In this document: piece by piece, positions 10,653 to 36,839 of the stretch
Layout: each line of letters begins with the position of its first letter
Position numbering within the stretch: position 1 is the stretch's first letter
Origin: Halodesulfovibrio sp.
GTDB lineage: Bacteria; Desulfobacterota; Desulfovibrionia; Desulfovibrionales; Desulfovibrionaceae
Reading direction: 5' to 3'
DNA: 64,000 nucleotides
Assembly (NCBI RefSeq): GCF_015482765.1
Contig: NZ_JADMLB010000003.1
Coordinates: 1-64,000, forward strand
Translations under genes and position numbers: made by a program
The notes under the pieces: model-generated
What the model was told of the DNA's origin: nothing
The model's input: the letters and a program-made list of their open reading frames with translations, nothing else
Database searches by the model: none

Positions 10653-10694
10653 AAAACTCCGGAAAATGCAGTACGGGCATTCTCCGGAGTTTAG
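10653..10694 (-). terminator. terminator of the sia operon
   Basis: AAACTCCGGA...TCCGGAGTTT with an inner ATGC/GCAT pair; the A-run on its left becomes the U-run of the minus-strand transcript that ends siaA. Confidence 0.85.
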
Positions 10695-10702
10695 ATTGGT
10701 AA

Positions 10703-11884
10703 CTACATTTCAGCGCCAAAAACTAAAACGTCATCTCGTCGCTTTTCATGACCTTGATAATGAATGAAGTCTGAGAACAATTCATCCTGCTGTGCCTCCA
10801 TGCTTTCATGCTGTTTCTCAATAACTGCTTTAAACCGTTTTCGACCGAACGGCAGTCGGCGATCCCCACCGACTTGGTCAATAAGACCGTCAGTAAGCAT
10901 ATAGAAGCGATCCCCCTTCTCCAACGAAATAGGCTGGTTCGTAAAAGCAAAATCCTCTGGAGTTTTGTTCATGCCTACACCCTTTTTATCTCCCTTGTAC
11001 TCAACAAGAGTACCGTCTTTTTTACAAAGAATAAGATAATTTCGAGCGCCGGAGAAAACCATTTCTTTTCCGGAATTAGCAACATAAACAAACGAGCAGT
11101 CCATGCCATCATCAGGGCTTGCTTCTGCATCGTTTCCAGCAAGTGCAAGCTTAATCTGTTTATTCATTTCAGTTAAAATTCCAGCCGGATCACGCTCAAA
11201 TTTTGAAGAATCCAATCTGTCGAGCAAAGACTGTACAATAAGAGTCATAAACGCACCGGGAACACCATGTCCTGTGCAATCAATTATTGCGAGGAAAAAG
11301 CCATTCTCTGTTTTTTTAAACCAGTACGAATCTCCCCCTACACCGTCACGCTGCTTCCACAACAAAAAGGAATCCTTGAATACAGATGCCACTTCGTTTT
11401 TTTCCGGCAGAAAAGCTTTTTGGATCACTTCAGCATAATCAATAGAGCCTTGAATCTGCTTTTGCGCATCCTCAAGCATGGACATTGTTGTTTTCAACTC
11501 TTTTTGACGGCTACTGATCACGTGTCCCATCCAAAACATATTATGCCGCAACTTCTGCAACTCATCCTGACTTGCCGGTTCAGGCGGAACTTCATTAAAA
11601 GGATTAAGGTTCCCGTTCTGAATATCAAGACAAAGGCCATTGAGTTGTTTAATCGGGAACAAAACAACAAGATACGTTACAAGCTTTGAAAGCGGCAGCA
11701 GAGAAATAAGCCCTAGTATTGCCCACAGCCCAAGCTTATCCAGCAACTCTGTACGGGTGAGTGTTTCGCCGGAAATTAAAATTGTCAGCGGGGCTGCTAC
11801 AAGAAACAATGCGAGAAAGAAATTCATTTTCAATCCAACATTAAACCAACCCACACCATCCAGCACTCTCTTAGCAAACGACAT
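10703..11884 (-). CDS. siaA: SiaA-like membrane PP2C/SpoIIE phosphatase
   Basis: A 393-residue protein with two membrane segments (about 20-38 and 52-77), a short HAMP-like and coiled-coil linker (80-155), and a SpoIIE/PP2C phosphatase domain (about 165-393). Metal-binding Asp residues are in GVGGD185 and D202CTGHGVPG, with MLTDGLID near the end. In Pseudomonas SiaA dephosphorylates the switch protein SiaC and SiaB rephosphorylates it. Here siaB and siaC are in the same operon, so the same role is likely. Unlike a typical sensor there is almost no periplasmic domain, so the input may come through the membrane or from the neighbouring chemoreceptor-like protein. AGGAG precedes the ATG. Confidence 0.8.
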   Translation of the reverse strand: MSFAKRVLDGVGWFNVGLKMNFFLALFLVAAPLTILISGETLTRTELLDKLGLWAILGLISLLPLSKLVTYLVVLFPIKQLNGLCLDIQNGNLNPFNEVPPEPASQDELQKLRHNMFWMGHVISSRQKELKTTMSMLEDAQKQIQGSIDYAEVIQKAFLPEKNEVASVFKDSFLLWKQRDGVGGDSYWFKKTENGFFLAIIDCTGHGVPGAFMTLIVQSLLDRLDSSKFERDPAGILTEMNKQIKLALAGNDAEASPDDGMDCSFVYVANSGKEMVFSGARNYLILCKKDGTLVEYKGDKKGVGMNKTPEDFAFTNQPISLEKGDRFYMLTDGLIDQVGGDRRLPFGRKRFKAVIEKQHESMEAQQDELFSDFIHYQGHEKRRDDVLVFGAEM

Positions 11885-11968
11885 TACTATCTCCTTGCCT
11901 ACGTAGAGTTAGTCGAGACAACGCCCCCTTCCACATAAGCATTTATACATACGACAGGTAGAAATTTT

Positions 11969-13336
11969 CTACGCTGCGGCTTCAACAGGAATGTGCCCCT
12001 GCTGGTGAAACTCATCAATAACTGTACACAAATTTTGTGTATGACTGGTCACATATTCTACAACATCTGAGGCCTGTGTTGATATTTCAGCAGTATGCTG
12101 AGAAACATCACTAATGCCTTGAACCAGCTGTTCCATTCTGCGCGATGCTGCCACCTGCTGTTCAACTGCTGCAGCAATATTTTGATTTTGCGATGATGCA
12201 CTGCCAGCCAGCTCAACAATATCTTCCAACGATTTTCCAGATTGTTGTGACAAATCGTACACTTCTTCCAGTTTCTTACTTGTCTCATCAACGCACAAAG
12301 CATTTTCCTTGATCACATCACCTATTGAAAACATGATCTTACGCACATCTGCTGTCGCATTTACTGTCCTTTCAGCAAGCTTACGTACTTCATCAGCAAC
12401 AACAGCAAAGCCCCTTCCTGCTTCACCGGCTCTTGCCGCTTCAATTGCCGCATTCAATGCTAAAAGATTCGTTTGATCTGCAACATCTTCAATCAACTCG
12501 ATTACATCTGTAATTTTTGCAGCCTGCACACTCAGCTCATTCATATTCCCCTGAAGCTCTGAGTGAGATGCTTTCATATGCTCAACAGCTTTCAGGTTAC
12601 TATGCACGACATCTGCACTTTGTTCGGCAACACTGATGGTTCCCTTTGCGTTTTCTGCCGTCTTATGTGTGGTAATTGAAATCTCTTTTGCAACGATGGT
12701 AATTTCTTCCATCGCGGTTATTGCTGTTACAAGGTCATCTTTTTGCTCCACTGCACCTTTAGTAACATCCCCCATCAAAGCAAACAGGCGGTGTGAATTA
12801 TCTGTTAAGCCATTAGTTATCCCTTCCAGCTTATCCGCAGCTTGGGCAAACGCCTCTGCCCTTGAACTGCTTGCTTTTTCAGCGGCTTTTTCTGCCTTGC
12901 GCAATGCGCGTACTGTTGTTCTGGACTCTTTGAACGCTTCTTTTTTTATTGTTTCCATTTCGTCTCTATATTCACGCGCAATGGTAAACACTCGATTCAG
13001 AGAACCGGAAAATTCATGTAAAAACGTATTTGCGGAAACAGTATGTGTAAATTGAAGGTCGTCATCTGATGCATTCTGACACGAAGAAAGTAATCCTGCT
13101 AAAGGATTCCCCACTGAAAAACGAACCCACAGCCCAATTCCGAAAAGGACTATCACGCCAGCCAAAATGGTTATTCCGATAAAAGGATATAAAGAAAAGG
13201 TAGCTGCGCCTGCTCCAAAACTATACCCTGCTCCCCCGCCAAGACCCGCTGCAATAAGGCATACTATCCAAAAAAAGACTGTCGTCTTAACCTGTAATGC
13301 AGCAGCTCCCCCTCGCCAAAACAATAGGTTGTTCAC
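11969..13336 (-). CDS. chemoreceptor-like protein inside the sia operon
   Basis: A 455-residue methyl-accepting chemotaxis protein. Two closely spaced membrane segments (about 18-42 and 48-72) leave essentially no periplasmic sensor; a coiled coil follows (about 125-165), then the signalling hairpin with the conserved tip [19 protein letters not shown] and [16 protein letters not shown]. It would touch CheA/CheW through that tip. It starts with GTG, 15 bases after siaC, and is followed 84 bases later by siaA. In the known SiaABCD system the output gene here is a diguanylate cyclase; this protein takes its place. No C-terminal CheR-docking pentapeptide is visible. Family certain; coupling to Sia inferred. 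Confidence 0.9.
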
Positions 13337-13351
13337 AACGCTAAGTCCTTG

Positions 13352-13735
13352 CTAGCTGTAGCTGACTAAATTAAACGAAAGCGACTCCACTTCTTCCATA
13401 AAATCCTCACCGCACTCTAATGCTACTTCATTTTCTTCATGATATCGCCAATCTACAGCAATAGAAGCCCCTGAGCTTGCGGCTGTATCAAGCAATTCAA
13501 ACAGCTCCATAAAAACTTTTGAACTTGAACTGTTAAAATACAAAATATCCATTGAAAACTTGATCGCTTTTCCTTGGGCATCTGCAAGATACTGTTTAAG
13601 CCAAGAAAACACTGGTCCGTAAAAAGACAAGCTGTTTTCCGGATATGACTCACCCGCTATCTCATGCGTATGTGTTGCCGGATTTAAATTGATCCTTGGT
13701 GTAGATTTGGTTGCTTCAACTACAAATTGATCCAT
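13352..13735 (-). CDS. siaC: SiaC-type partner-switch protein (DUF1987)
   Basis: A 127-residue protein of the DUF1987/SiaC family: begins with a VEATKSTPRINL strand and contains ESYPENSLSFYGPVFSWL and the YFNSSSSKVFMELFELL segment. In Pseudomonas the corresponding YFNTSSS motif holds the Thr that is phosphorylated; by that alignment the acceptor here would be Ser69. SiaC binds its output enzyme only in the unphosphorylated state. It lies 10 bases after siaB and 15 before the chemoreceptor gene. Cytosolic. Confidence 0.85.
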   Translation of the reverse strand: MDQFVVEATKSTPRINLNPATHTHEIAGESYPENSLSFYGPVFSWLKQYLADAQGKAIKFSMDILYFNSSSSKVFMELFELLDTAASSGASIAVDWRYHEENEVALECGEDFMEEVESLSFNLVSYS

Positions 13736-13745
13736 TGTAAAACTC

Positions 13746-14291
13746 CTATGCTTTTACTTTCATGGAAAAAAATGAACACATCTCATCCAAAGGTTCGATA
13801 GAAAACGCCAGCGGAGCACGTGCCTTACGCGCCATTTCTATAAAACCGAGTCCTGCACCTTTTGAGTCAGCATCAGGCCCCTGCTTGCGCATTCTTTTGT
13901 AATACTGTTTTAACTCCTCAGGAGGCATTTGCTGAACCTGCTCAATTTTATGCGCTAACTTCTGCGTCTGTGATGCATGAATTCTGTTGCCACAGGATAT
14001 ATAGTATCCGCCCTCATCATCCTGCCCGACAATAATTTGCCCCCATGCGGTCTCTGCTCCGCGTTCATCACTCAAAACTCTATCTGCTGAATACCGTATA
14101 ATATTCTGCATTTGTTCGATCAAAATCGTGAACACACGCTGGATTGCCCCTAGGCCTACTTCTTCATGCCGTAACTTTGTTCTAATAGCGTCACCGACTC
14201 CCTCGACTACGCTTTGCGATACAGGCCCATTAAAATAGAACACGACTCCGCTATCTTCTAAGAAATGCTGCTTCTGACTTGAAAAATCCAC
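13746..14291 (-). CDS. siaB: SiaB-family protein kinase (DUF6272)
   Basis: A 181-residue protein of the SiaB/DUF6272 family, a compact GHKL-type kinase of the anti-sigma-factor kinase kind. The N-box-like helix is FTILIEQMQNIIRYS and the glycine-rich ATP lid is SKGAGLGFIEMARKA. It should phosphorylate SiaC. GTG 14291 is chosen as start because GGAGG lies 6 bases before it; a TTG at 14294 would be too close. First gene of the operon siaB-siaC-MCP-siaA. Confidence 0.82.
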   Translation of the reverse strand: MDFSSQKQHFLEDSGVVFYFNGPVSQSVVEGVGDAIRTKLRHEEVGLGAIQRVFTILIEQMQNIIRYSADRVLSDERGAETAWGQIIVGQDDEGGYYISCGNRIHASQTQKLAHKIEQVQQMPPEELKQYYKRMRKQGPDADSKGAGLGFIEMARKARAPLAFSIEPLDEMCSFFSMKVKA

Positions 14292-14447
14292 CAACTCCCT
14301 CCCGGGAAAACGATTTAAACATGATGTGTTGCCTCACCAACGTCAGCACCCCACTTAAGCACTCCTCTGTACCACTTTTCGCAGCACGAGTTTTTTGCAC
14401 TTATCTAACCAACCAAAACAACTGTTTGTTTTTCGATGTCTAGATAT

Positions 14448-16702: not shown

Positions 16703-19700
16703 TTATCTCATTTCACTGATAAGCGCATTAAGCCGCTCTGCAAGACTTGCAAGCTCTGTTACAGCACTTGCAGACTGCGTCATTGCCTGTGACGTTTCAA
16801 AAGAAATTTTATTAATCTCTTCTGTTGCACGAGAAACTTCTTCTGCGGCAGCAGATTGTTCCTCAGCTGCAGTCGCAATCACACGCACCTGATCGGCAGA
16901 GTCATTTGCATACGACAGAATACTTGAAAGAAGTTCTCCTGAGCGCTGAGCTTGAGCAGTACTCGTTTCCACAGCCTTAACCGTACGCTGAGCTTCTTCC
17001 ATATTCTGCTGTGTCACCTGTTGGATCGACGTAATTGCAGAACCAACCTGATCGGTAGCATTCATTGTATTTTCTGCAAGTTTGCGTACTTCATCCGCAA
17101 CGACAGCAAAACCACGTCCAGCGTCCCCAGCTCTTGCTGCTTCAATTGCAGCGTTTAATGCCAACAAGTTTGTCTGGTCTGCTATGTCGTTAATCACATT
17201 CATAACATCACCGATTGATGACACTTGTGTGGTCAATTCGTTCATGCTTTCTGTCAATTCATGAGAAATGGACTCAACAGCACTGATCGTATCCAGTACA
17301 TCCTGAACCGCAGCAGCACCGTCCTGTGCCGTTGCACGAGTCTGCTCTGAGTTTTCAGCAGCATGCGACGCATTTTGAGCAACTTCAAGAACTGTCGCGT
17401 TCATCTGTTCCATTGACGTTGCTGTCTCTGAAGCGCGCTCACGCTGAACATCAGCACCTTTACTGGATTGTTCGATCTGAGCAGAGAGTTCTTCAGCAGC
17501 AGAGGAAAGCTGACTGCTGATATCCACTGCGTTTTCAGCAAGATCACGCATTTTACGCTGTGCTTTGGTAATATCAGTCTGGTCTACAATGATCTTCAGT
17601 GCACCGACAACTTCATTTTCCACGCGAATCGGAATTGCAGAGAAACTTGCGTGCGAGCCTTCGCCATCAATGACCATATCAGCTTCAGAAACTTCACGCT
17701 CACCACTCTCAATTGTACGATCACAAACGCAACGTTCTGTTCGGCAATCGGTTGAGTGCATTGTATCAAAACACTTATTGCCAGCTACTTTTTCAGGATT
17801 GATATCTGCCCCAACATGGACACCATACTGGTTCATAAACAGAATATTAGAGTTGGTATCAACAGACATCAATACCACCGGCATAGCATCAAGAAACTCA
17901 ACAAAAAGGTCACACAGCGCGTTTGTATTGTGAATCAACTGATTGTAGCCGCCATTAAATTGAGATGCATCTGCACGCTCCCTCAAATTACCGCGACTTA
18001 CCGCTTCGCTGACAACTTCTACGGTTCCAGTAACGTCTTTTAACGTTGCCGGAATAGCACGTGAAGCAGCAGCAAGTTGCCCAATCTCATCTTCTTGATC
18101 AATATTCAAAGATGCTTCAAAGTTTCCTCGAGCAATCTGCTTTGAAAACTCTACAACACGGCCTAACGGTTTCGTAATACTTATCGCAATGAGGTATGCA
18201 AAAATGGCCACAAGCAAGCCAATACCTAAGGACATTATCCAAATGTCCTGCTTCAATGCCCCTACCGGAGTCGTGACTTCTGCCTGATCAATTTCAGCGA
18301 TAAGTGCCCATTTAGCAGAGCCGAACTCTACCGGAGTAAAAGCGGAAAGTACGGTAGCACCGTTATATCCGACAACCTCAAGAGTTCCACTTTTACCTGC
18401 CAATGCAAGCTTCGTAGCCTCGGTATCAACGCCATTTGTTTCTACAGATCCAGCAAAAGAGGCAGAAACATTTCGCGTTTGAGGATCTAAGAATGTTTTT
18501 GAGCGCATAAGATTGTCACTGCCAACAAGATAACACTGTCCTGTTTTCCCCATGCCTGCGCGCTGTTCCATTATGCTATTAATGGAATCCAGTGACATTT
18601 GGAGAGCGACAACAAATTCAATCTCACCATTATGCATAATCGGCTGAGCCAAAAATGCATACGGCAACCCCTTATTTGGCGCATATGGAGCAAAATCACT
18701 GATCACAGTCTGACCAGACTCCATCACATTTTTAAAAACTTCACCAAACTTTGTATTTGAAAATTCTCCAGTACGGATATTGGTATGATAGTCTGCTTCC
18801 TGCTGCACACTGTAAAACACATACCCATCTTTCTGAATCAGGAACAAGTCAGCAAAACCACTTTCTGCTGCAAAATCCTTAAACAAGCTTGAGCCGTCTT
18901 TTTCTTCATTGGCTAACACTTCTTCAAGATTAATCTTAACAACTACAGCCCAGTTTACTCCTGTAATATGCAATGGCTGAGCAAGCACCATACAAAGAGT
19001 TCCTACACTGTCGATAAAAAGTCCCTGTACCGGTTTGCCAGTTTCTTTTACCGTTTTAAGATAATCTGTTGAAATAAATGTTCCAACGCCAAACGCACCA
19101 TCCCCAAGAGTTACAAGGGTACTACGTAATGACGAACGTTTTCCATCAAGAGAAATAAAGTAGGTTTCACCTGTAGTGCCAAGACCTGTTCTATCGTGCG
19201 TAATAAGGTTCATAGCTGCTTCAGGAATCGCTACTGCGATGTATCCTGTGAACTGGCTTCTTGCGTCGATAAGACGTGTCAGAATAAATGACACAGGACG
19301 TTCACCTGCGGGAGTGTAAATTTCGTAATCTACAAATTTACTTCTGTGAGACTTGGCCTTCATTTCCGCAAAAGCTTTTCCAAGCCCTGATCTCTTCAAG
19401 CGACCTGTCGCCAGGTTCTCCCCAAGGTCACGGTTCTTCTTGGCCGTATAAACAATCTCTCCTTGAGGATTGATAAGCAGGACATCACTCCAGCCGTTCT
19501 TACTGCACAGGTTTCGCATACGCCAACCTGAAGAAGAATCGAGCCTTTGCCAAGATTCAGTGTTTTGAGCTCCAGCTTTGGAAAGTGCTGAAAATTCATA
19601 CGTGATTTTATTAAGGTCAGTGTCACGACCAAGCAACGTTACTTTTGAAGCCTGTTCAATAAAGTAAGATTCAATTTCTTTTTGCTTCTGCATTTGAATA

Positions 19701-19969
19701 ATATGCATTTTATCAAAAGCAGATTTTTTCAAATGACCGACTGTCCCTACAAGACCACGTAGTGAACTTTTCCAGTCTTCTTGAATTTTCAGTACATCAT
19801 GTTTTTTTGAATTTTTTACTGTTTCAAGCTGAGCATAAGCTTGTTGCATTAATGCATCAGACGCAGTGTTACTTGAAACTAGACCAATAACAATGAGCGG
19901 TAGAAGCCCAACAGCAAGGAAATATCCAATAAGTTTCGGCTTCATTGAAACATTAGATAACAAATTCAT
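16703..19969 (-). CDS. large chemoreceptor with duplicated Cache sensor and Cys-rich PAS
   Basis: A 1,088-residue methyl-accepting chemotaxis protein. Order: first membrane segment (about 13-32); a very long periplasmic part (to about 575) made of two related Cache-like modules, as shown by DRTGLGTTGETYFISLDG in the first and QRAGMGKTGQCYLVGSDN in the second; second membrane segment (about 578-600); HAMP; a PAS domain (about 690-810) with NKCFDTMHSTDCRTERCVCD; and the signalling domain with tip [19 protein letters not shown]. The Cys-rich PAS insert recurs in Desulfovibrio receptors and may hold a metal or redox group. No C-terminal CheR pentapeptide. GGGGG lies 5 bases before the ATG. Monocistronic. 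Confidence 0.92.
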   Translation of the reverse strand: MNLLSNVSMKPKLIGYFLAVGLLPLIVIGLVSSNTASDALMQQAYAQLETVKNSKKHDVLKIQEDWKSSLRGLVGTVGHLKKSAFDKMHIIQMQKQKEIESYFIEQASKVTLLGRDTDLNKITYEFSALSKAGAQNTESWQRLDSSSGWRMRNLCSKNGWSDVLLINPQGEIVYTAKKNRDLGENLATGRLKRSGLGKAFAEMKAKSHRSKFVDYEIYTPAGERPVSFILTRLIDARSQFTGYIAVAIPEAAMNLITHDRTGLGTTGETYFISLDGKRSSLRSTLVTLGDGAFGVGTFISTDYLKTVKETGKPVQGLFIDSVGTLCMVLAQPLHITGVNWAVVVKINLEEVLANEEKDGSSLFKDFAAESGFADLFLIQKDGYVFYSVQQEADYHTNIRTGEFSNTKFGEVFKNVMESGQTVISDFAPYAPNKGLPYAFLAQPIMHNGEIEFVVALQMSLDSINSIMEQRAGMGKTGQCYLVGSDNLMRSKTFLDPQTRNVSASFAGSVETNGVDTEATKLALAGKSGTLEVVGYNGATVLSAFTPVEFGSAKWALIAEIDQAEVTTPVGALKQDIWIMSLGIGLLVAIFAYLIAISITKPLGRVVEFSKQIARGNFEASLNIDQEDEIGQLAAASRAIPATLKDVTGTVEVVSEAVSRGNLRERADASQFNGGYNQLIHNTNALCDLFVEFLDAMPVVLMSVDTNSNILFMNQYGVHVGADINPEKVAGNKCFDTMHSTDCRTERCVCDRTIESGEREVSEADMVIDGEGSHASFSAIPIRVENEVVGALKIIVDQTDITKAQRKMRDLAENAVDISSQLSSAAEELSAQIEQSSKGADVQRERASETATSMEQMNATVLEVAQNASHAAENSEQTRATAQDGAAAVQDVLDTISAVESISHELTESMNELTTQVSSIGDVMNVINDIADQTNLLALNAAIEAARAGDAGRGFAVVADEVRKLAENTMNATDQVGSAITSIQQVTQQNMEEAQRTVKAVETSTAQAQRSGELLSSILSYANDSADQVRVIATAAEEQSAAAEEVSRATEEINKISFETSQAMTQSASAVTELASLAERLNALISEMR

Positions 19970-28581: not shown

Positions 28582-30672
28582 TTAGTTAGGCATCCCCGCA
28601 ATTACCTGCATCATATCTTCCGCAGAAGTAATAAGCTTTGCTGCCGCCTTGTAGGAATGCTGGAATCTCGTCATTTCGGAAATATCAGCATCCAAATTAC
28701 TGCCGTGTATTGTGGCATTCTGACGAGAAAGGTCAAGTAGCAGGGCTTCATTAAATTGCGTTTTGTATAATGCCTTCGTTGCATCATCTTTTGCCTGAGC
28801 ACTCAACGTAGAATAGTACTCACGGGCACTCACTGTTTTTGTTGCTTCTCCAGGTGTGCTGAACGAGAATGAAGCCTCTTTCAACGCACCAATGGATCGT
28901 GCAGTATCATTACTTTCTACTGCAACAGAACCTGCGTTGTTTACAACACCTGCGTTAATTGCAGCTGCATCTTCACGAACTCGCTCATGCACTTCCATAT
29001 TCTTTGCAGATGTTCCTGCAAAAAAAGTATTCATCCCTAAAGCGGCAAACAAGTGAGAGCTGTCTTCACCAAAAGAAAGCGTATGATTCTCTGCAGCAGT
29101 AATGTGCAACGTATTGTTTTCAACAGTCGCAGATCCAAACTGTCCCAGAGAACTGTTAATAGCATCACGCACGTTGTTCAAAGAATGAACAGTCGGATCA
29201 AAATCACGGACATACGGCGCGACACCAGAAAAATCTATTATTCCGTAAGCGGTTGTCGGTGCAGGCTTACCTGTTTCCGCGTTTGTAGCAAACAACGTCA
29301 TCTTACCGGCAGATACGCTTGTAGCGGTTGCAAGCCCGGAACTGTTGCCTGCTAACGGCACATCAGCATTTACTACACTGTTTGTAGCGCTGATTTCGGA
29401 ATGAACTGCGGTTGAAGCACCTTGTGCATGCACCGCATTCACTGCTGTAATAATGGTAGACGCAAGGTCATCCAGCTTCTCGGCATAATTACCAAGCTTA
29501 TTGTCACGCAGCTGCATCAATCCGGCAATCTGCCCACCGGTAATGCGTAGCTCGTTATCGCTTCCGTCAAAAAAGGTCTGCGGTGTTAAGTTAACACGCC
29601 CCTGAGGGGTAAATCCGGTTACATGCTGTTTAGGGATTATCGCAAACGTGTCCCCTGCTGCCAGCAAGCCGGAGTTAGCATTAAAAGTCACTGCCAGCTT
29701 CTGTACAGATGGAGCTGTACCATTTGAGGCTACGGCAAATTGTAAATCATTACCTTCAGCATCCGACAACCATGAACGCTTGCCATCAAGCGATGCTCTG
29801 AAGCGAACATCTCCCGTTCCGACAGCTCCCCCTTGAGTGATCTCAAGAACAACTTCGCGGGAAGATCTGCCTTCAAAACTGACAGTACCATCAAAACTTG
29901 ATGCCGGAGTCAGGCGGGAAGTGATGGAGGGTTCGCTCAACTGTAACGTATATGCAGATGTTGCATCCACCAACGTGAATCCGGAACGAGTGGAAACCTG
30001 CATCTGCTCACGGGTATTAATACTGGTCTCAATGTCCAGTTTTTCTGAAATAGCATGGACAATCGCGTTCCGCTCTTGAATAAGATCACTGCGTGCACCA
30101 ACACTTTCTGGAGATGCCAAACGCGCATTTACATCCACGAGAGCCTGCAATTTATCGTTAAGCTCTACGAGAGATTCCTGAACGCCTTCAGCCAGAGCCT
30201 GAGATGTTGAATCCAGCATTTCCCGCTGGCCTCGTAACATCTGAACCAACGAATCCGCGCCATCCAGTACACTTTGTCTGGATTCTTCATCCTGCGGCTT
30301 CATGCTCAGTATTTTCCAGTTATCAAAAAAATGGCTGATCGTATCTTGTGACCCCAGAACTTCTTCTGTGGCGAACATGGAATCAATATTCAGTAACATC
30401 TCATGTTGGCTGTCCCAGCGCGCAAAGTCGGATGTTCGAGCCACCTTCTGCTGCTCAACCTGCTCAACAAAACGGGATACCACCTCGTTACCAGTCGTAC
30501 TGATATTCATAAGACCCGGCAGATAATAGATACCGGTGCTTTGACCAGACTGGTCGGCAGGCACAATATTTCCAGTATTACGAACCGGAATATTGCTATC
30601 AGTAAGCTTTATATCCTTAGGAGGAGTGTAGACGGTATTTCCGCCTAAATTAAGTAACGAGGTTATAGCCAT
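28582..30672 (-). CDS. flgK: flagellar hook-associated protein 1
   Basis: A 696-residue FlgK, the first hook-filament junction protein, exported through the flagellar channel. The N-terminus differs from rod proteins by lacking a strict MSSLL start but has the DFARWDSQHEMLLNIDSMF helix region, and the C-terminal coiled-coil helix FQHSYKAAAKLITSAEDMMQVI ends the protein as in FlgK/FlgE. The variable middle (about 230-560) is long. It starts directly after the flgN stop. FlgL, its usual neighbour, is not found between it and csrA. Confidence 0.9.
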   Translation of the reverse strand: MAITSLLNLGGNTVYTPPKDIKLTDSNIPVRNTGNIVPADQSGQSTGIYYLPGLMNISTTGNEVVSRFVEQVEQQKVARTSDFARWDSQHEMLLNIDSMFATEEVLGSQDTISHFFDNWKILSMKPQDEESRQSVLDGADSLVQMLRGQREMLDSTSQALAEGVQESLVELNDKLQALVDVNARLASPESVGARSDLIQERNAIVHAISEKLDIETSINTREQMQVSTRSGFTLVDATSAYTLQLSEPSITSRLTPASSFDGTVSFEGRSSREVVLEITQGGAVGTGDVRFRASLDGKRSWLSDAEGNDLQFAVASNGTAPSVQKLAVTFNANSGLLAAGDTFAIIPKQHVTGFTPQGRVNLTPQTFFDGSDNELRITGGQIAGLMQLRDNKLGNYAEKLDDLASTIITAVNAVHAQGASTAVHSEISATNSVVNADVPLAGNSSGLATATSVSAGKMTLFATNAETGKPAPTTAYGIIDFSGVAPYVRDFDPTVHSLNNVRDAINSSLGQFGSATVENNTLHITAAENHTLSFGEDSSHLFAALGMNTFFAGTSAKNMEVHERVREDAAAINAGVVNNAGSVAVESNDTARSIGALKEASFSFSTPGEATKTVSAREYYSTLSAQAKDDATKALYKTQFNEALLLDLSRQNATIHGSNLDADISEMTRFQHSYKAAAKLITSAEDMMQVIAGMPN

Positions 30673-31137
30673 TTACAGTCTCCCGTGTATCAGTACGGCC
30701 TCCGGACGACTTTGCGTGTATGCTCCGGTTCTTCCGTAGGTAGCGTTGTTGCGTGGTTGAATTTGACTTTGCAGGTGGTTAAGCAGTGCCTGACTCTGGT
30801 CATGCAGAGCCATTGCCAGTTCAGCATTCATTGATGCCTGTCGGGAACAGCGCTTTTCCAACACATCTATGCGCTGAAGCAGAGCATTCAGTTCTACCTG
30901 CTCTTCTTCCGCAAGAATCTGGATAACATCAGCCAGACGTTGCCCCCCCAAAGATTCTTTCAACGTAGTACGCTCATTTGCAATCTGACGCATGAGTTCA
31001 TGGATCGAAAACTCAAGAGCGGTAATAGATTCCGGTTTGCGCTCGCGTAACTCGGCAAACTCTTCCGCAAGTAATGTCTCAAGCACCTCAAGTGCTTTTT
31101 CCTGACGATGTAAATTCTGGTAGGTTTCGGTGTACAT
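30673..31137 (-). CDS. flgN: FlgN-family flagellar export chaperone
   Basis: A 154-residue, almost wholly helical protein with heptad patterns (YQNLHRQEKALEVLETLLAE and later LLQRIDVLEKRC), typical of FlgN, the cytosolic chaperone for FlgK and FlgL. The family is weakly conserved, so the call leans on position: it lies between flgJ and flgK, with its stop touching the flgK start. Ends in a Gln/Arg-rich tail. Confidence 0.8.
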   Translation of the reverse strand: MYTETYQNLHRQEKALEVLETLLAEEFAELRERKPESITALEFSIHELMRQIANERTTLKESLGGQRLADVIQILAEEEQVELNALLQRIDVLEKRCSRQASMNAELAMALHDQSQALLNHLQSQIQPRNNATYGRTGAYTQSRPEAVLIHGRL

Positions 31138-31147
31138 GGTATCTCCT

Positions 31148-32362
31148 TTACGTTACCCGTCCGATGGGAAGCCCCGCCATCAGGCGAGATCTGATCTGTT
31201 GAGGGTTCCATGCAAGTTCGCCCTGTCGCACTTCAAAGTGCAAATGAGGCCCTGTGGAACGTCCTGTACTACCTACTTCAGCAATTTTCCTGCCAGCCGT
31301 GATCGTTTCTCCGACTTTTACATCCAATTTGCTGTTGTGACCGTAATAACTGCGCCATCCATTAGGGTGTTCCAGAACTACCAGTTTGCCGTATCCTTTT
31401 TTTTCACCGGAAAAGATGACCTTGCCATCCCACGCTGCCGCAACGGAATCACCGGTCTTTCCGGCAATATCCACTCCGCTGTGCCACGCTTTCTTTCCAG
31501 TAAAAGGATCCTTTCTCCAACCGAAGTTAGAAGAGATAGGCCCGGGAAGCGGCCAGTTTATCGTCGCCATATCAGGACTAGGCTCAAGCGGCCCGCCCAT
31601 ACCGATAATTTGTGATGCTCCATTTGAAGCATCTACTCGCACCGGTGTTACCAAATCCTCTTCCACCGCCTGCGGCACGCTCTTCACAGGCTCTGCCATT
31701 GCCTGTAATGCCGGATCATCTTCCGGAGGATCAGCAACCACACGATCAGGATTTGCTATAAATTCCATTTCTAACTGACGCCCCAGCTCTTCCACATTTT
31801 CTTTCACATCCTTATCAGTCATCACCTGTAAGTTTGTGTTGATCACACGGGTTGCTGTTGTATCAGTTTCCATTTCCTGTTCTTCCATAGGAGAATAAAG
31901 ATCATCTGGAGGAACAGTACTTACTTCTTTTGCCTGTGCCGCATGAGCCTTAACTCTCGCAAACACATCTGAAGAAGAAAGATCACGGAGAGCAACTGTG
32001 CCCCCCTTACTGTTTGTATCGCGGCTTGCATCGCCCAGCTTATCTGAAAGCTGTCTGTACAACATATCTGCCAGACCGATACCTCCTGACTGGGACATCT
32101 TGGTAGACAGCTCCTGATCAAGCATACTCTGCCACATCTTTTCCTCACGGCTTTTAAACATACCGCTTTTAGGAACAGTGTTACGCATCTGCTGCCACAT
32201 TTTCTGAATGAATATTGATTCAAACCCTTCAACAGCTTCACGCAGCTTTGCATTATCAGCCACACCGCCCTTTTTCAGGGCGGTGAGCTGTTTTGATTTT
32301 GCTTTAAGCTGCTGTGCGCCGATAGAAGCATTCAGCATTTCAGAATCTACAGGAGCTACCAT
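31148..32362 (-). CDS. flgJ: FlgJ-type rod protein fused to M23 endopeptidase
   Basis: A 404-residue protein. Residues about 30-110 are the FlgJ rod-cap domain (LREAVEGFESIFIQKMWQQM, MWQSMLDQELSTKMSQSGGI). A Pro/Val-rich linker follows. Residues about 270-395 are an M23/LytM peptidase with the zinc ligands in WHSGVDIAG and PHLHFEV. E. coli FlgJ has a glucosaminidase instead; here wall passage of the rod would be by cutting peptide cross-links. ATG 32362, with GGAGG inside the end of flgI, is preferred to the frame opening at 32395, which overlaps flgI. No signal peptide; exported by the flagellar apparatus. Confidence 0.88.
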   Translation of the reverse strand: MVAPVDSEMLNASIGAQQLKAKSKQLTALKKGGVADNAKLREAVEGFESIFIQKMWQQMRNTVPKSGMFKSREEKMWQSMLDQELSTKMSQSGGIGLADMLYRQLSDKLGDASRDTNSKGGTVALRDLSSSDVFARVKAHAAQAKEVSTVPPDDLYSPMEEQEMETDTTATRVINTNLQVMTDKDVKENVEELGRQLEMEFIANPDRVVADPPEDDPALQAMAEPVKSVPQAVEEDLVTPVRVDASNGASQIIGMGGPLEPSPDMATINWPLPGPISSNFGWRKDPFTGKKAWHSGVDIAGKTGDSVAAAWDGKVIFSGEKKGYGKLVVLEHPNGWRSYYGHNSKLDVKVGETITAGRKIAEVGSTGRSTGPHLHFEVRQGELAWNPQQIRSRLMAGLPIGRVT

Positions 32363-32363
32363 G

Positions 32364-33473
32364 TTAGATGACCTCCAGTTCCGCATGCAGCGCACCGGCT
32401 GCTTTCAGAGCATTGAGGATTGAGATGAGATCACGCGGTGTCGCGCCAATTGCATTCAAACCGTCTGTAAGTTCCTGAAGTGTTGCGCCTTCCATAAGGA
32501 CAAGACGCTTGTTCTCTTCTTTTACTTTTACGTTTGTCTGCGGTGTAGTGACTGTTTTACCTTCGGAGAACGGATTAGGCTGTGAAACCTTCTCGTCTTC
32601 CTGAACAACAACCTGCAAGGAACCATGAGCGATAGCTACTGGTGAAATCCGTACATTCGCGCCGACAACAACGGTACCTGTATTTTCATCTACAACAACG
32701 CGTGCTTTTTGATCCGGTGTTACTTCAATGTTCTCAATGGCTGCCATCAGCGGTACAATATTGTTTCTGTACTGCGGGGGAACATCCAATGTGATTGTGG
32801 AAATATCTCTAGCAAACGCAAAGTTGCCGCCAATTGCTCTATTCAGGCTTTGTACCACCTGATTTGTTGTCGAAAAATCACCGTTATGCATGTTCAGGGT
32901 CAAACTTTCCTGACTGTTAAACTCAAACGGAACAGAACGTTCAACGTTCATACCGTTAGGGATACGTCCAACAGTGGTAATGTTTTTCTGCACCTTGGCG
33001 GCCTTACCTTCAGCAGAAAATCCACCAATGGCGACAGGGCCCTGTGCAAGGCCATAGACCTGCCCATCAATACCTTTCAACGGTGTCATAAGAAGAACAC
33101 CGCCCAAAAGACTTTTAGCATCACCAAGACTGGAAACGGTAACGTCTATACGGGAACCCGGCTTTGCAGAAACAGGCAACTTGGCGGTTACCATAACTGC
33201 TGCGATGTTTTTAGACTTAATGTCATTAGGGCTTACGCTGACACCCATTTTTTCCAGCATGTTAACAACTGCACGTGTGGTAAACGTAGAAGATGTACTA
33301 TCCCCTGTGCCGCTGAGACCTGAAATAAGACCGTACCCGACAAGTTGGTTATCACGTACGCCGCCAAAATCGGCGATATCTTTAATGCGCACTGCTCCGG
33401 CAGTTTGCGGAAGCGCTGCTGCCGCAAAAAATGCAAAAACTAACAGTACTGCGATGTGTTGAATGCGTTTCAT
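32364..33473 (-). CDS. flgI: flagellar P-ring protein FlgI
   Basis: A 369-residue P-ring subunit with a Sec signal peptide (about 1-26, [19 protein letters not shown]). The start of the mature protein [26 protein letters not shown] is highly characteristic, as are [27 protein letters not shown] and [24 protein letters not shown] at the end. Assembles around the rod in the periplasm with help from FlgA, encoded two genes upstream. Overlap-free but tightly packed with flgJ. Confidence 0.95.
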
Positions 33474-33488
33474 ACTTTTCTACCTATC

Positions 33489-34178
33489 CTAGAACGGCCA
33501 CACGGTATCCATAAGGCGTGTAATCCAACCTGGCTTCTGCTTGTCTGCAATAACACCTTCACCGAAGTATTTAATACGGGCATTCGCAACCTGACTGGAA
33601 AGAATGCTGTTGTTATCTGCAATATCTCTGGCGCGGATTAAGCCGGTGAGCATCAAGTATTGCGTTTCACTGTTAACCTGTGTCTCGCGAACACCTTCAA
33701 TCTGAAGCAGACCTCCGGGGCTTACTCGGAGTACGCGGCATGCAACGGTTGCAGTAAACTTGTTCTCACGGTTTGTTTCACCCTCACCGTTAAATTTGGT
33801 TTTGGCACTCGCCTTCACCATCGGATTCGATATCGAACCGAGCAATGGAAGTGACGACTTGCCAAGAAACGCATCAACACCAAGGTCAATAGAAGAATCT
33901 TTGTCGCTTGTTGTATCTGCCTTATTCTGGGCGCTTGCATTTTCAACAATGTTCACCATTACGATATCACCAACGCGACGAGCACGGTTATCTGCAAACA
34001 GAAAATCTGCATTGGTCGGCTGGAAAAGTGACCCCGGATTAGCTCTGGCCATCTCTGGAGTGAGCATTTGCGGCGGCTCAGCAACCGGCATGGATGGAAC
34101 CGGCTTTTCTTTGGCAGCCTGACACCCCGTCAACATGAGTGCTGCCAGAATGATGACAGTGTAAAAACGAACATTCAT
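33489..34178 (-). CDS. flgH: flagellar L-ring lipoprotein FlgH
   Basis: A 229-residue outer-membrane L-ring protein. ATG 34178 gives a lipoprotein signal peptide with lipobox LTGC (Cys about residue 19) and has GAGG 6 bases upstream; the longer frame from 34223 would bury it and is not used. Family marks: GSLFQPTNADFLFADNRARRVGDIVMVNIVE and LQIEGVRETQVNSETQYLMLTGLIR. Forms the outer bushing with FlgI. Confidence 0.95.
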   Translation of the reverse strand: MNVRFYTVIILAALMLTGCQAAKEKPVPSMPVAEPPQMLTPEMARANPGSLFQPTNADFLFADNRARRVGDIVMVNIVENASAQNKADTTSDKDSSIDLGVDAFLGKSSLPLLGSISNPMVKASAKTKFNGEGETNRENKFTATVACRVLRVSPGGLLQIEGVRETQVNSETQYLMLTGLIRARDIADNNSILSSQVANARIKYFGEGVIADKQKPGWITRLMDTVWPF

Positions 34179-34228
34179 GGAATACCTCGTACTCAAAAAA
34201 CTGTGTTTATCCGCTATCCTCAAGGGTT

Positions 34229-35236
34229 TTAGCGATTTCTTTCAATAACTACCGTGCTGTCATCCAGCACTGTTGCGTAAACTTGTCTTTTACTTTGCAA
34301 ATTGCGAACCGGAATGATGTCTCCGATGCGTCCGTCCTCCATTGCTTTTGCAACAACAGTCAGACGAATTGCTGACCCCTTGAAAATCAGATCAACGCGA
34401 GAGCCTTTTGAGATAACAGGAACAGTTTCCAAGTCACCCTCAAAAATAGGTGTTCCAGCCCCGAGAGTTCTCATAACACGGTAAGGACCGCCTCTGCCGT
34501 CCCACGGTTCACCTCTCAAGTACGCTAGGTTTTTACGCTCATGCGTGATTTTGTCCGGTGTAAGCAGATCATTTCTATTGATCGGAGTTCCGGCGCAAGG
34601 AATAGTCACCCATAAATCCAAAAAGGCGCCACCTGTTACACGACGAACAATCTGACCGTTGGGGTCTATTTCTCTAAATCGGATACCGATTCTTCCTGCC
34701 TGTACGGTGCGGAGTGGTTCGATATCGAGCCGGTTTTTTGAATCACGAAGAAAAATAAAATTCGGAATTGTCATATCGCGCAGAACGGCCTCGCCATCCA
34801 ATTGCTGTGTCGCATTACTGACGGTACGCGTGACCATTTGTGAAAGCGTGTTTTTCTGCACCACCTTGCCTCCACGCTGAATAGCGATAGAACTAGGTAG
34901 AATCGCCTTACTTGCCAACCCGCCACCAAGGTACTGCTGCAAAGCATTTCGCAACTTAGGACGAGTAATAGCCATCGGACGTCCGTATTTACGTGGTGCA
35001 GGCCAAAGTTTTATCTTGGAAAAATTCTCCCAAGATTTGTCCGCTATGTCTCCTGACGGCTTGGCAATATCCCCAAGCAAAACAATATCATCATGGACAA
35101 CAGCAGCCGGAAGCACTGTAAAATGCCACCGCGCTTCTGAAGCGGAAGCACTTGTAGCAACTGCGAGCAAACACACGACTGACATGCAGAGTGCCGCCCG
35201 CTTCATAAACATGACAAATAAAGAACGCATACGCAT
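34229..35236 (-). CDS. flgA: flagellar P-ring assembly chaperone FlgA
   Basis: A 335-residue periplasmic FlgA with a signal peptide (core AALCMSVVCLLAVATSASA, residues about 13-32). The C-terminal SAF-like part has LLTPDKITHERKNLAYLRG, GTPIFEGDLETVPVISKGSRVDLIFKG and AIRLTVVAKAMEDG, the usual FlgA pattern. The long N-terminal half is typical of Desulfovibrio-type FlgA. It helps FlgI assemble the P ring. Start at ATG 35236; an internal ATG at 35206 would also give a good signal peptide but lacks a ribosome site. Confidence 0.9.
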   Translation of the reverse strand: MRMRSLFVMFMKRAALCMSVVCLLAVATSASASEARWHFTVLPAAVVHDDIVLLGDIAKPSGDIADKSWENFSKIKLWPAPRKYGRPMAITRPKLRNALQQYLGGGLASKAILPSSIAIQRGGKVVQKNTLSQMVTRTVSNATQQLDGEAVLRDMTIPNFIFLRDSKNRLDIEPLRTVQAGRIGIRFREIDPNGQIVRRVTGGAFLDLWVTIPCAGTPINRNDLLTPDKITHERKNLAYLRGEPWDGRGGPYRVMRTLGAGTPIFEGDLETVPVISKGSRVDLIFKGSAIRLTVVAKAMEDGRIGDIIPVRNLQSKRQVYATVLDDSTVVIERNR

Positions 35237-35253
35237 ATTCCGAAGGTTATACG

Positions 35254-36036
35254 TTAGCTTTTGAGCTGTGCTGCTAACTGCAACATAGAGTCAGAAGTCT
35301 GAATTGCTTTTGAGTTCATTTCGTAGGCGCGCTGACCAACAATCATGTTTACCATTTCGTCTACGATCTCAACGTTGGACATTTCAAGAAAGCCCTGTGC
35401 AAGAGTGCCTGTTCCATCTTCGCCCGGAACACCTTCAACCGCTTCGCCGGAAGCTTCTGTCTGTGAATAGATGTTTCGACCAAGAGGATCGAGACCGGCT
35501 GGGTTGATAAAGGTATAGAGAGGAACATCCGCACCTGCTAACTCATTACCCTGAGCATCGATTGCTGCTAAACGACCGTTTGCAGAAAGAGTTACACTCT
35601 TTGCATCAGCAGGCACGATAAATTCCGGCTGAAGCTTATATCCGTTGGAAGTTACGATTGTGCCGTCTTTATCTAATTTAAAAGCACCGGCGCGGGTGTA
35701 ACGAAGCTCACCGTTCACTTCCACCTGAAAGAAACCGTCACCTTCGATTGCAAAGTCCAATTGGTTTGTTGTGTTCTGGAAATCACCCTGAGTAAAAAAC
35801 TTATGGGCACTTGCAGGGCGAACACCCATACCAACCTGAACTGGAGTCGGCACCTGTCCACCATCAGCTGTCGGGGAACCAGCAATCTTCATGGACTGGT
35901 ACATAAGATCTTCAAACTCTGCGCGGCTTTTTTTAAAGCCGATGGTATTCACGTTCGCAAGGTTGTTGGAAATGGTATCAATATTCAACTGCTGGGCATA
36001 CATGCCGGAAGCAGAAGTCCAAAGGGAACGCATCAT
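35254..36036 (-). CDS. flgG: flagellar distal rod protein FlgG
   Basis: A 260-residue distal rod subunit. Begins MMRSLWTSASGMYAQQLNIDTISNN, the standard FlgG start, and ends with VEIVDEMVNMIVGQRAYEMNSKAI and SDSMLQLAAQL. Central motif YTRAGAFKLDKDGTIVTSNG. Exported without a cleaved signal by the flagellar type III apparatus. The second gene of the operon, 20 bases after flgF. Confidence 0.97.
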   Translation of the reverse strand: MMRSLWTSASGMYAQQLNIDTISNNLANVNTIGFKKSRAEFEDLMYQSMKIAGSPTADGGQVPTPVQVGMGVRPASAHKFFTQGDFQNTTNQLDFAIEGDGFFQVEVNGELRYTRAGAFKLDKDGTIVTSNGYKLQPEFIVPADAKSVTLSANGRLAAIDAQGNELAGADVPLYTFINPAGLDPLGRNIYSQTEASGEAVEGVPGEDGTGTLAQGFLEMSNVEIVDEMVNMIVGQRAYEMNSKAIQTSDSMLQLAAQLKS

Positions 36037-36056
36037 AACTACTATCCTCCGTAGGA

Positions 36057-36839
36057 CTACGCGCTGGATTTACCCAGACGTTGTGTTGAGTTTTTGTCCA
36101 GCTCACTGCTGGTTTTCATAATTTTTGTATATGCTTCGAACTGACGGTGTGCTTCAATCATGTTCACCATTTCTGAAACAACCTCGACGTTCGCAGACTC
36201 TAAAGCACCCTGTTGCAGCTCCGCCTGTGCAGCAGGCTGTTCAACAATGTCAGATCCGTCACGAACCCTGAACATATTCTGTCCAAGCTTCTCCAACCCG
36301 CGTAAATCTTCAAAGGTAACAAGCTGAAGCTGACCGACCTGAACATTGTTTGCGTACAGTTCGCCGCGCTTGCCTACAATCACGTTTGCATTTCTAGGGA
36401 GTGTGATCGGTCCACCGTCACCAAGAACAGGATAGCCTCTGTCTGTTACTAAGGTTCCGTCAGCGCTTTGACGGAACTTTCCATTACGGGTCAAATAATC
36501 ACCGTCAGGAGTTTGGATTTTAAAGAAGCCTTCTCCGTGAATTGCCACGTCCAGCGGGCCTCCGGTCAACTTTACAGCGCCCGGAGTAAAGTCTGTTTGG
36601 GCAAGAGCAATACGCGGTCTCGCCATCAATTTAGGGTCTGGAAACAGCTTTTCTGAACGAACATTTGCTACAGGTTCCATGATTTGATCATGGGCAAACT
36701 TGACGAAGGTATCCTTGAAAGCAAGGGTGTCACGCTTGTAGCCTGTTGTATTTATGTTAGCCAAATTGTTACTGATGTTATTAAGGCGGTGTTCATTTGT
36801 AAGAGCACCGAACAAGGCGCTATACACACTGCTTTGCAT
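36057..36839 (-). CDS. flgF: flagellar proximal rod protein FlgF
   Basis: A 260-residue rod protein of the FlgF/FlgG family. The start SSVYSALFGALTNEHRLNNISNNLANINTTG is more FlgF-like than FlgG, and it precedes flgG. Contains YLTRNGKFRQSADGTLVTDRG and ends with EVVSEMVNMIEAHRQFEAYTKIM. First gene of the long flagellar operon; a sigma-54 promoter lies 41 bases upstream of its ATG. Confidence 0.92.
   Translation of the reverse strand: MQSSVYSALFGALTNEHRLNNISNNLANINTTGYKRDTLAFKDTFVKFAHDQIMEPVANVRSEKLFPDPKLMARPRIALAQTDFTPGAVKLTGGPLDVAIHGEGFFKIQTPDGDYLTRNGKFRQSADGTLVTDRGYPVLGDGGPITLPRNANVIVGKRGELYANNVQVGQLQLVTFEDLRGLEKLGQNMFRVRDGSDIVEQPAAQAELQQGALESANVEVVSEMVNMIEAHRQFEAYTKIMKTSSELDKNSTQRLGKSSA

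Follow-up and report, generated by a model that had tools for sequence, protein, structure and literature searches.

We analyzed a 64,000-nucleotide stretch of a Halodesulfovibrio sp. genome (contig NZ_JADMLB010000003.1, positions 1 to 64,000; hereafter, the window) that encodes, on the minus strand, a SiaABC partner-switch operon with an embedded methyl-accepting chemotaxis protein (MCP). The genes follow one another in the order siaB (13746..14294), encoding a Ser/Thr kinase-like protein of the DUF6272 family (PF19788, 137.9 bits; PDB 6kko_A, E 1e-22); siaC1 (13352..13735), encoding a DUF1987/SiaC switch protein (PF09345, 146.1 bits; E 1.2e-19 to the sequences of PDB 6kko/6kkp/7e6g); a gene for a 455-aa MCP (11969..13336; PF00015, 136.3 bits); and siaA (10703..11884), encoding a membrane PP2C/SpoIIE phosphatase (PF07228, 74.3 bits). 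Pfam matches confirm these four open reading frames (ORFs), with intergenic gaps of 10, 15 and 84 nt, as read from the DNA alone in the original prediction; only the siaB start placed at 14291 had to be moved, as that GTG lies one codon inside the ORF, which begins at 14294. In the alignment with the PDB chain, the Y-F-N-S-S motif of SiaC1 contains Ser69 (codon 13529..13531, minus strand) at the position that corresponds to the phosphosite of Pseudomonas SiaC. The components expected of a SiaABC switch, namely a membrane PP2C, a kinase of the DUF6272 type and a DUF1987 protein with a phosphorylatable residue in the N-T/S-S motif, are thus all encoded here. A minus-strand hairpin resembling an intrinsic terminator (10654..10692; 16 pairs and a T tail) was found by pattern match 3' of siaA; six such sites occur in the scanned stretch vs 3.8 expected. 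The promoter scan was uninformative (6 sites vs 8.4 expected).

The MCP was predicted to have two membrane segments and almost no periplasmic domain, and both hydropathy and an AlphaFold2 (AF2) model agree. Hydropathy gives two hydrophobic stretches with a short loop between them, and the model, used for helix order only (predicted template modeling score, 0.37), gives a helix at residues 10-39, about nine residues, and a helix at 49-90. The HAMP region was modeled as helix-break-helix at residues 91-102 (AF2 per-residue confidence ~60), and the Pfam HAMP domain showed no match up to E 10. The signalling coil is long, and its tip is intact and, in all 10 rows of the alignment of SiaC-adjacent MCPs (A5), invariant except for one L/M position. 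A coil element, [KR][KR][EQ]AFxExxxxxxALRxA (12818..12955, minus strand), detected by profile, is common to the SiaC-adjacent MCPs of three genera. SiaA has two closely spaced hydrophobic stretches that, by hydropathy, leave no space for a periplasmic domain.

No GGDEF ORF lies within 6 kb of siaC1, and the profile for the docking stalk of diguanylate cyclases described below detected no stalk-bearing ORF in the 24 kb scanned. The window operon thus is not a complete SiaABCD operon with a stalk-GGDEF gene in cis; all components of the circuit are nevertheless present in the genome. A second siaC (siaC2; C56:137791-138150) shares 4 nt with the end of a PAS-GGDEF gene and has a small HD-GYP gene (228 aa) directly after it, so that the predicted lack of a GGDEF gene holds around siaC1 but not around siaC2. 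The PAS-GGDEF protein carries the stalk (C56:139083-139202; E 1.9e-19 in the genome search), and the 228-aa HD-GYP has none detectable (E 150), from which it follows that adjacency to siaC does not require a stalk. The only siaB found in this genome is in the MCP operon, and none of the five SpoIIE matches genome-wide lies on contig C56. The SiaB of the MCP operon is therefore the only one found for both SiaCs, and the genes are divided such that kinase and phosphatase are encoded in the window, and the enzyme with a switch protein of its own at the siaC2 locus. We consider it likely that the window operon encodes the upstream components of a SiaABCD circuit divided between two loci, whose diguanylate cyclase would act in trans, with the MCP as a conserved accessory receptor, not as a replacement output.

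The stalk that identifies the putative client was defined by comparison with the known complex. In the SiaC-SiaD crystal structure, as described in PMC8457831, N67, T68 and S69 of SiaC contact two repeats of the SiaD stalk, S50/Q54 and S82, D83 and Q86. Within the family, GGDEF proteins whose genes neighbour siaC have a corresponding segment, typically RLVxMGDRMQ, and 33 such segments were combined into a profile (A1). Its best match among 177,635 PDB sequences was SiaD of 7e6g (E 1.4e-6; chain positions 64-98); another, weak match covers positions 42-56 of the same chain. Given that the 7e6g chain positions run one ahead of the numbering in PMC8457831, the matched segments hold both SiaC-contact repeats (S82/Q86 and S50/Q54). 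The strict pattern [SG]DxxQ was present in 41 of 43 GGDEF ORFs and in 195 of 4407 ORFs overall.

We surveyed 199 genomes of the family, 47 with SiaC above the Pfam cut-off and 152 others (two of these with a sub-cut-off SiaC match). The stalk was detected with A1 at E<=1e-6 in 41 of the 47 SiaC-positive genomes vs none of the 152 others; because most of the training rows of A1 come from those 41 genomes, the positive count is partly circular, and the informative part is the zero. At the level of ORFs (E<=0.01), a stalk was found in 48 of 54 SiaC stretches. Three of the remaining six (the window, L035 and L037) are MCP operons without a GGDEF gene, and in the other three (L060, L065 and L078) siaC is near the contig end. 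Several class III adenylate/guanylate cyclases with a stalk also follow siaC in the family (L042, L061, L070 and L084).

A wider sample consisted of the best 80 of 481 confirmed relatives, the nearest to the window SiaC, which represent several phyla judging by their titles. Here 56 of 3364 ORFs matched the stalk profile (E<=0.01), 48 of them directly downstream of siaC; no stalk protein was found after siaC in 32 of the 80 loci, some of which end soon after siaC (L152 and L201). The Pfam domains of the 48 proteins (E<=1e-5; one protein may count twice) were GGDEF (20), HATPase_c (19), Guanylate_cyc (7), HD_5 (2) and SpoIIE (1), with no MCPsignal match, and the motif aspartate was the sole invariant column across them. 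The HATPase_c proteins with a stalk directly after siaC, mostly histidine-kinase-like, include those of L151, L166, L182, L189, L194, L204, L205, L212 and L216; a SpoIIE phosphatase of Achromatium (L207:855-1847) likewise has a docking stalk directly after siaC; and CheX was matched in three of the 48 proteins. In five loci of this sample, an MCP lies within 1.4 kb after siaC, and four of these apparently are genomes already counted. The fifth, from a Campylobacteraceae metagenome-assembled genome (L190:5046-9501), has consecutive genes for SiaA, SiaC, a short PAS-like product and an MCP that contains a zinc-binding domain; a stalk protein was not found in L190.

The docking stalk thus appears, by its sequence, to be portable: it is recognized on GGDEF proteins, histidine-kinase-like proteins, class III cyclases, HD-GYPs and one PP2C. 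The stalk predicts that SiaC regulates not only diguanylate cyclases but also histidine kinases and nucleotide cyclases, across several phyla. The authors of PMC8457831 have suggested that DUF1987 proteins generally modulate proteins encoded next to them. A search of full-text literature, which leaves most subscription papers outside its coverage, found no report of a shared stalk; in the same literature, DUF1987 appeared in PMC8457831 only, and DUF6272 was absent.

In the genus of the window, the cyclase and the switch genes are arranged in several ways. The sample comprised 10 genomes, eight with SiaC and two without (G079 and G120). Each of the eight has one strong stalk match (E<=1.1e-17) and one siaB; the two others have neither (best stalk match, 0.03). 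Four genomes (G021, G096, G132 and G151) have GGDEF-siaA-siaB-siaC consecutively, and G142 has PAS-GGDEF-siaB-siaC-HD-GYP-siaA in one cluster, with 57% (SiaA) and 60% (SiaB) identity to the window proteins. The window genome (G000), G057 and G108 share the order siaB-siaC-MCP-siaA without a GGDEF gene in the operon. In G000 and G057, the PAS-GGDEF and HD-GYP genes are elsewhere, with siaC2 between them. In G108, the single SiaC is encoded in the MCP operon on contig C3, and the one strong stalk match is on contig C12, where a 371-aa ORF resembling the PAS-GGDEF protein is followed by a 228-aa HD-GYP-like ORF without an intervening siaC (both assigned by likeness to the window-genome proteins, not by Pfam). 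Provided that the stalk-GGDEF protein of G108 is indeed controlled by SiaC, it can only be served by the copy from the MCP operon. By contig positions, the MCP operon and the stalk-GGDEF locus are separated by at least about 30 kb (G000), 40 kb (G057) or 100 kb (G108).

Across the family, a same-strand MCP gene directly follows siaC in 10 of 54 stretches, from three genera: g1, that of the window (3), g14 (2) and g25 (5). This count excludes L074 (g25), where the stretch stops 578 nt past siaC, and two MCPs located 2.7 kb downstream (L082 and L083). The MCP is a conserved neighbour of SiaC, restricted to particular lineages. The original prediction, by which the chemoreceptor stands in place of the cyclase, is not supported by this set: seven of the 10 stretches (all those of g14 and g25) have a same-strand GGDEF gene upstream of siaA, the three stretches lacking it, all of g1, have a stalk-GGDEF gene elsewhere in each genome, and the MCP itself has no stalk.

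In a tree of 57 MCP rows, the 20 rows derived from the 10 SiaC-adjacent MCPs, as copies or fragments, fall on one side of a single branch (support 91/99), which is seen in 90% of bootstrap trees; the 37 comparison rows come from earlier searches and neighbourhoods and were thus not sampled at random, and the tree program flagged unusual composition among rows of the SiaC-adjacent group, as well as long branches. The search with the coil-element profile A2 is circular for its ten best matches, which are its own training rows. As a test, a profile built from g14 and g25 only (A3) was applied to the ten genus genomes, with 305 MCPsignal matches. A3 ranked the three SiaC-adjacent MCPs of g1 first, second and third (E 4.4e-9, 3.9e-8 and 1.0e-7; next, 2.1e-5). 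The occurrence of one MCP lineage in 10 of 54 stretches and three genera makes a functional tie with SiaC likely. It could still be that the MCP is a bystander, merely co-transcribed: with 305 MCPsignal matches in 10 genomes, chance neighbours are possible, and five of the eight SiaC-positive genus genomes have no SiaC-adjacent MCP. Against this stand the single lineage directly after siaC in three genera and the top three ranks obtained with a profile from the other two, and we regard coincidental linkage as unlikely.

A role of the MCP as an input was also considered, in which its sensing, either at the membrane or through the array, would steer the sensor-less SiaA (or SiaB), which in turn would set SiaC. 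The lack of a large sensor domain in SiaA, predicted and borne out by hydropathy, and the position of siaA after the MCP gene in the window fit this possibility. However, this lack is not tied to the MCP, as relatives that lack an MCP gene next to siaC (L053 and L067) also encode SiaAs of this two-stretch layout, 392 aa long; in g14 and g25, the MCP gene comes after siaC and does not adjoin siaA; and Pseudomonas SiaA is reported in PMC12834913 to respond to membrane perturbation. We hold an input role to be a minority possibility. The general rule that an MCP makes up for a sensor-less SiaA was rejected on the same two SiaAs.

Searches for a SiaC-docking segment in the MCPs were negative. The stalk profile detected none in 20 MCP ORFs (best 2.3 bits, E 29; window MCP -0.4 bits, E 200), [SG]DxxQ ahead of the signalling tip is absent from all 10 SiaC-adjacent MCPs, and profile-profile comparison found no similarity between the stalk and the MCP coil element. 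A cryptic stalk in the MCP was rejected as a candidate, with the loose pattern in 5 of 20 MCP ORFs and the strict one in two of 10 SiaC-adjacent MCPs, both times at residue 409 in the C-terminal helix past the tip, and in one of 10 other MCPs.

At the position of Thr68, the residue phosphorylated in Pseudomonas SiaC, both SiaC copies have serine, which is shared by 54 of 55 rows in the family set, and N68, S69 and S70 (SiaC1 numbering) are invariant in the SiaC alignment A4. Both copies also retain the SiaD-contact residues Y31, Y65, N67 and S69. The SiaC tree places the MCP-operon copies in one clade (97/84) and siaC2 copies, together with the SiaC of G142, in another (100/98).

These data bear on an alternative, the strong form of the original prediction, in which the target of SiaC1 has shifted to the MCP, which would be its output in place of the cyclase, such that phosphorylation would tune a chemosensory array and SiaC2 alone would serve the GGDEF protein. 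Within the genus, the MCP accompanies the SiaC1 clade in 3/3 cases and the SiaC2 clade in 0/3; the common coil element, the invariant signalling tip and one SDxxQ motif in the C-terminal helix of the window MCP can be read in the same way. Yet G108, with SiaC1 only, keeps the stalk-GGDEF gene and the HD-GYP-like ORF, the MCP lacks a stalk by profile and by the motif ahead of the tip and has a coil element unlike it, and in two other genera the MCP coexists with an upstream GGDEF gene in 7/7 stretches. We find this alternative improbable and the least favored of those considered here.

Several points weigh against the split circuit with the cyclase in trans. The three genus genomes with the SiaC-adjacent MCP are precisely those that have no GGDEF gene in cis to siaABC, which also fits replacement in the window operon. 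The two SiaCs belong to separate clades, so SiaC1 may serve another client; relative to Pseudomonas, Q10->K, D29->E, I71->S, L107->C and R103->V or L change SiaD-contact positions in both copies, and E110 is D in all SiaC1. The SDxxQ of the window MCP, at residue 409, recurs in one ortholog (L035) and is absent from the other eight SiaC-adjacent MCPs. Besides the partial circularity of the positive stalk count, six of the 47 SiaC-positive genomes miss the cut (G005, G071, G075, G077, G083 and G134): five have weaker ORF-level matches (E 1.4e-7 to 0.002), three of them class III cyclases, and G077 is cut by the contig end. In the wider sample, the profile gives E values of only 52 to 520 for HD-GYPs after siaC in L169, L206, L220, L224 and L226, although their N-terminal coil contains SDKRQ; this coil appears from its sequence to be a divergent stalk type that the profile does not recognize, which makes the 48 stalk proteins after siaC in that sample a lower bound. 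Finally, whereas the genes, the second locus, the stalk, the co-occurrences and the single siaB can be read directly, docking of SiaC on the PAS-GGDEF protein in trans is a prediction.

In the split circuit that we favor, SiaB would phosphorylate, and SiaA dephosphorylate, both SiaC1 from the window operon and SiaC2 from C56. Unphosphorylated SiaC would dock on the N-terminal stalk of the PAS-GGDEF protein in trans, switching on synthesis of cyclic di-GMP (c-di-GMP), which the HD-GYP encoded beside siaC2 would degrade. The MCP would most likely couple the switch to the chemosensory array via the coil element just below the membrane, so that c-di-GMP and motility could be set together; the direction of this coupling is tentative. 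That the MCP contacts SiaA, SiaB or SiaC is a tentative proposal, somewhat more doubtful than not. On a broader and more speculative view, which we consider rather unlikely, SiaC could be a general clutch for coiled-coil signalling proteins via the portable stalk, with AFxE...ALRxA extending the same Ser/Thr switch to chemoreceptor arrays and one phosphorylation event setting both c-di-GMP and chemotaxis. The case illustrates how an operon may be part of a full circuit despite lacking its output enzyme, the stalk provides a sequence test for which protein a SiaC acts on, and one MCP lineage is singled out for asking whether a Ser/Thr partner switch talks to chemoreceptors.

Elsewhere in the window, a separate gene on the same strand, ~2.4 kb upstream of siaB (16703-19969), encodes a 1088-aa MCP with HAMP and PAS_4 domains. 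Minus-strand translations at 28582-36839, judged by eye, resemble flagellar hook, ring and rod genes. The adjoining ORFs 1366-1845 and 1868-2431 have near-identical products and, by eye, look like a recent tandem duplication.

Among known systems, a PP2C/STAS/chemoreceptor pathway of Campylobacterota, presented in PMC9239204 as proposed from gene neighbourhood only and unverified, is similar in that a STAS-type switch is suggested to act on a chemoreceptor; it differs in having a bifunctional PP2C-kinase with a REC domain. This was the only paper in the full-text literature searched, which omits most subscription papers, to bring SiaC, SiaA, a chemoreceptor and chemotaxis together. The SiaC-MCP operons of g14 and g25 have the same MCP lineage after siaC; unlike the window operon, they combine it with a GGDEF gene upstream of siaA in the same gene run. 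Pseudomonas SiaA has a large periplasmic domain. In P. aeruginosa, siaABCD lies beside the chemosensory cluster che2, which would additionally point to a tie between both systems. Like P. aeruginosa SiaABCD, the window genome holds a PP2C SiaA, a kinase SiaB, a DUF1987 SiaC and a stalk-GGDEF protein. Unlike in P. aeruginosa, the window SiaC has serine for Thr68, the operon includes an MCP, SiaA is without a periplasmic domain, and the GGDEF protein contains a PAS domain and is encoded in a second locus together with a second SiaC and an HD-GYP.

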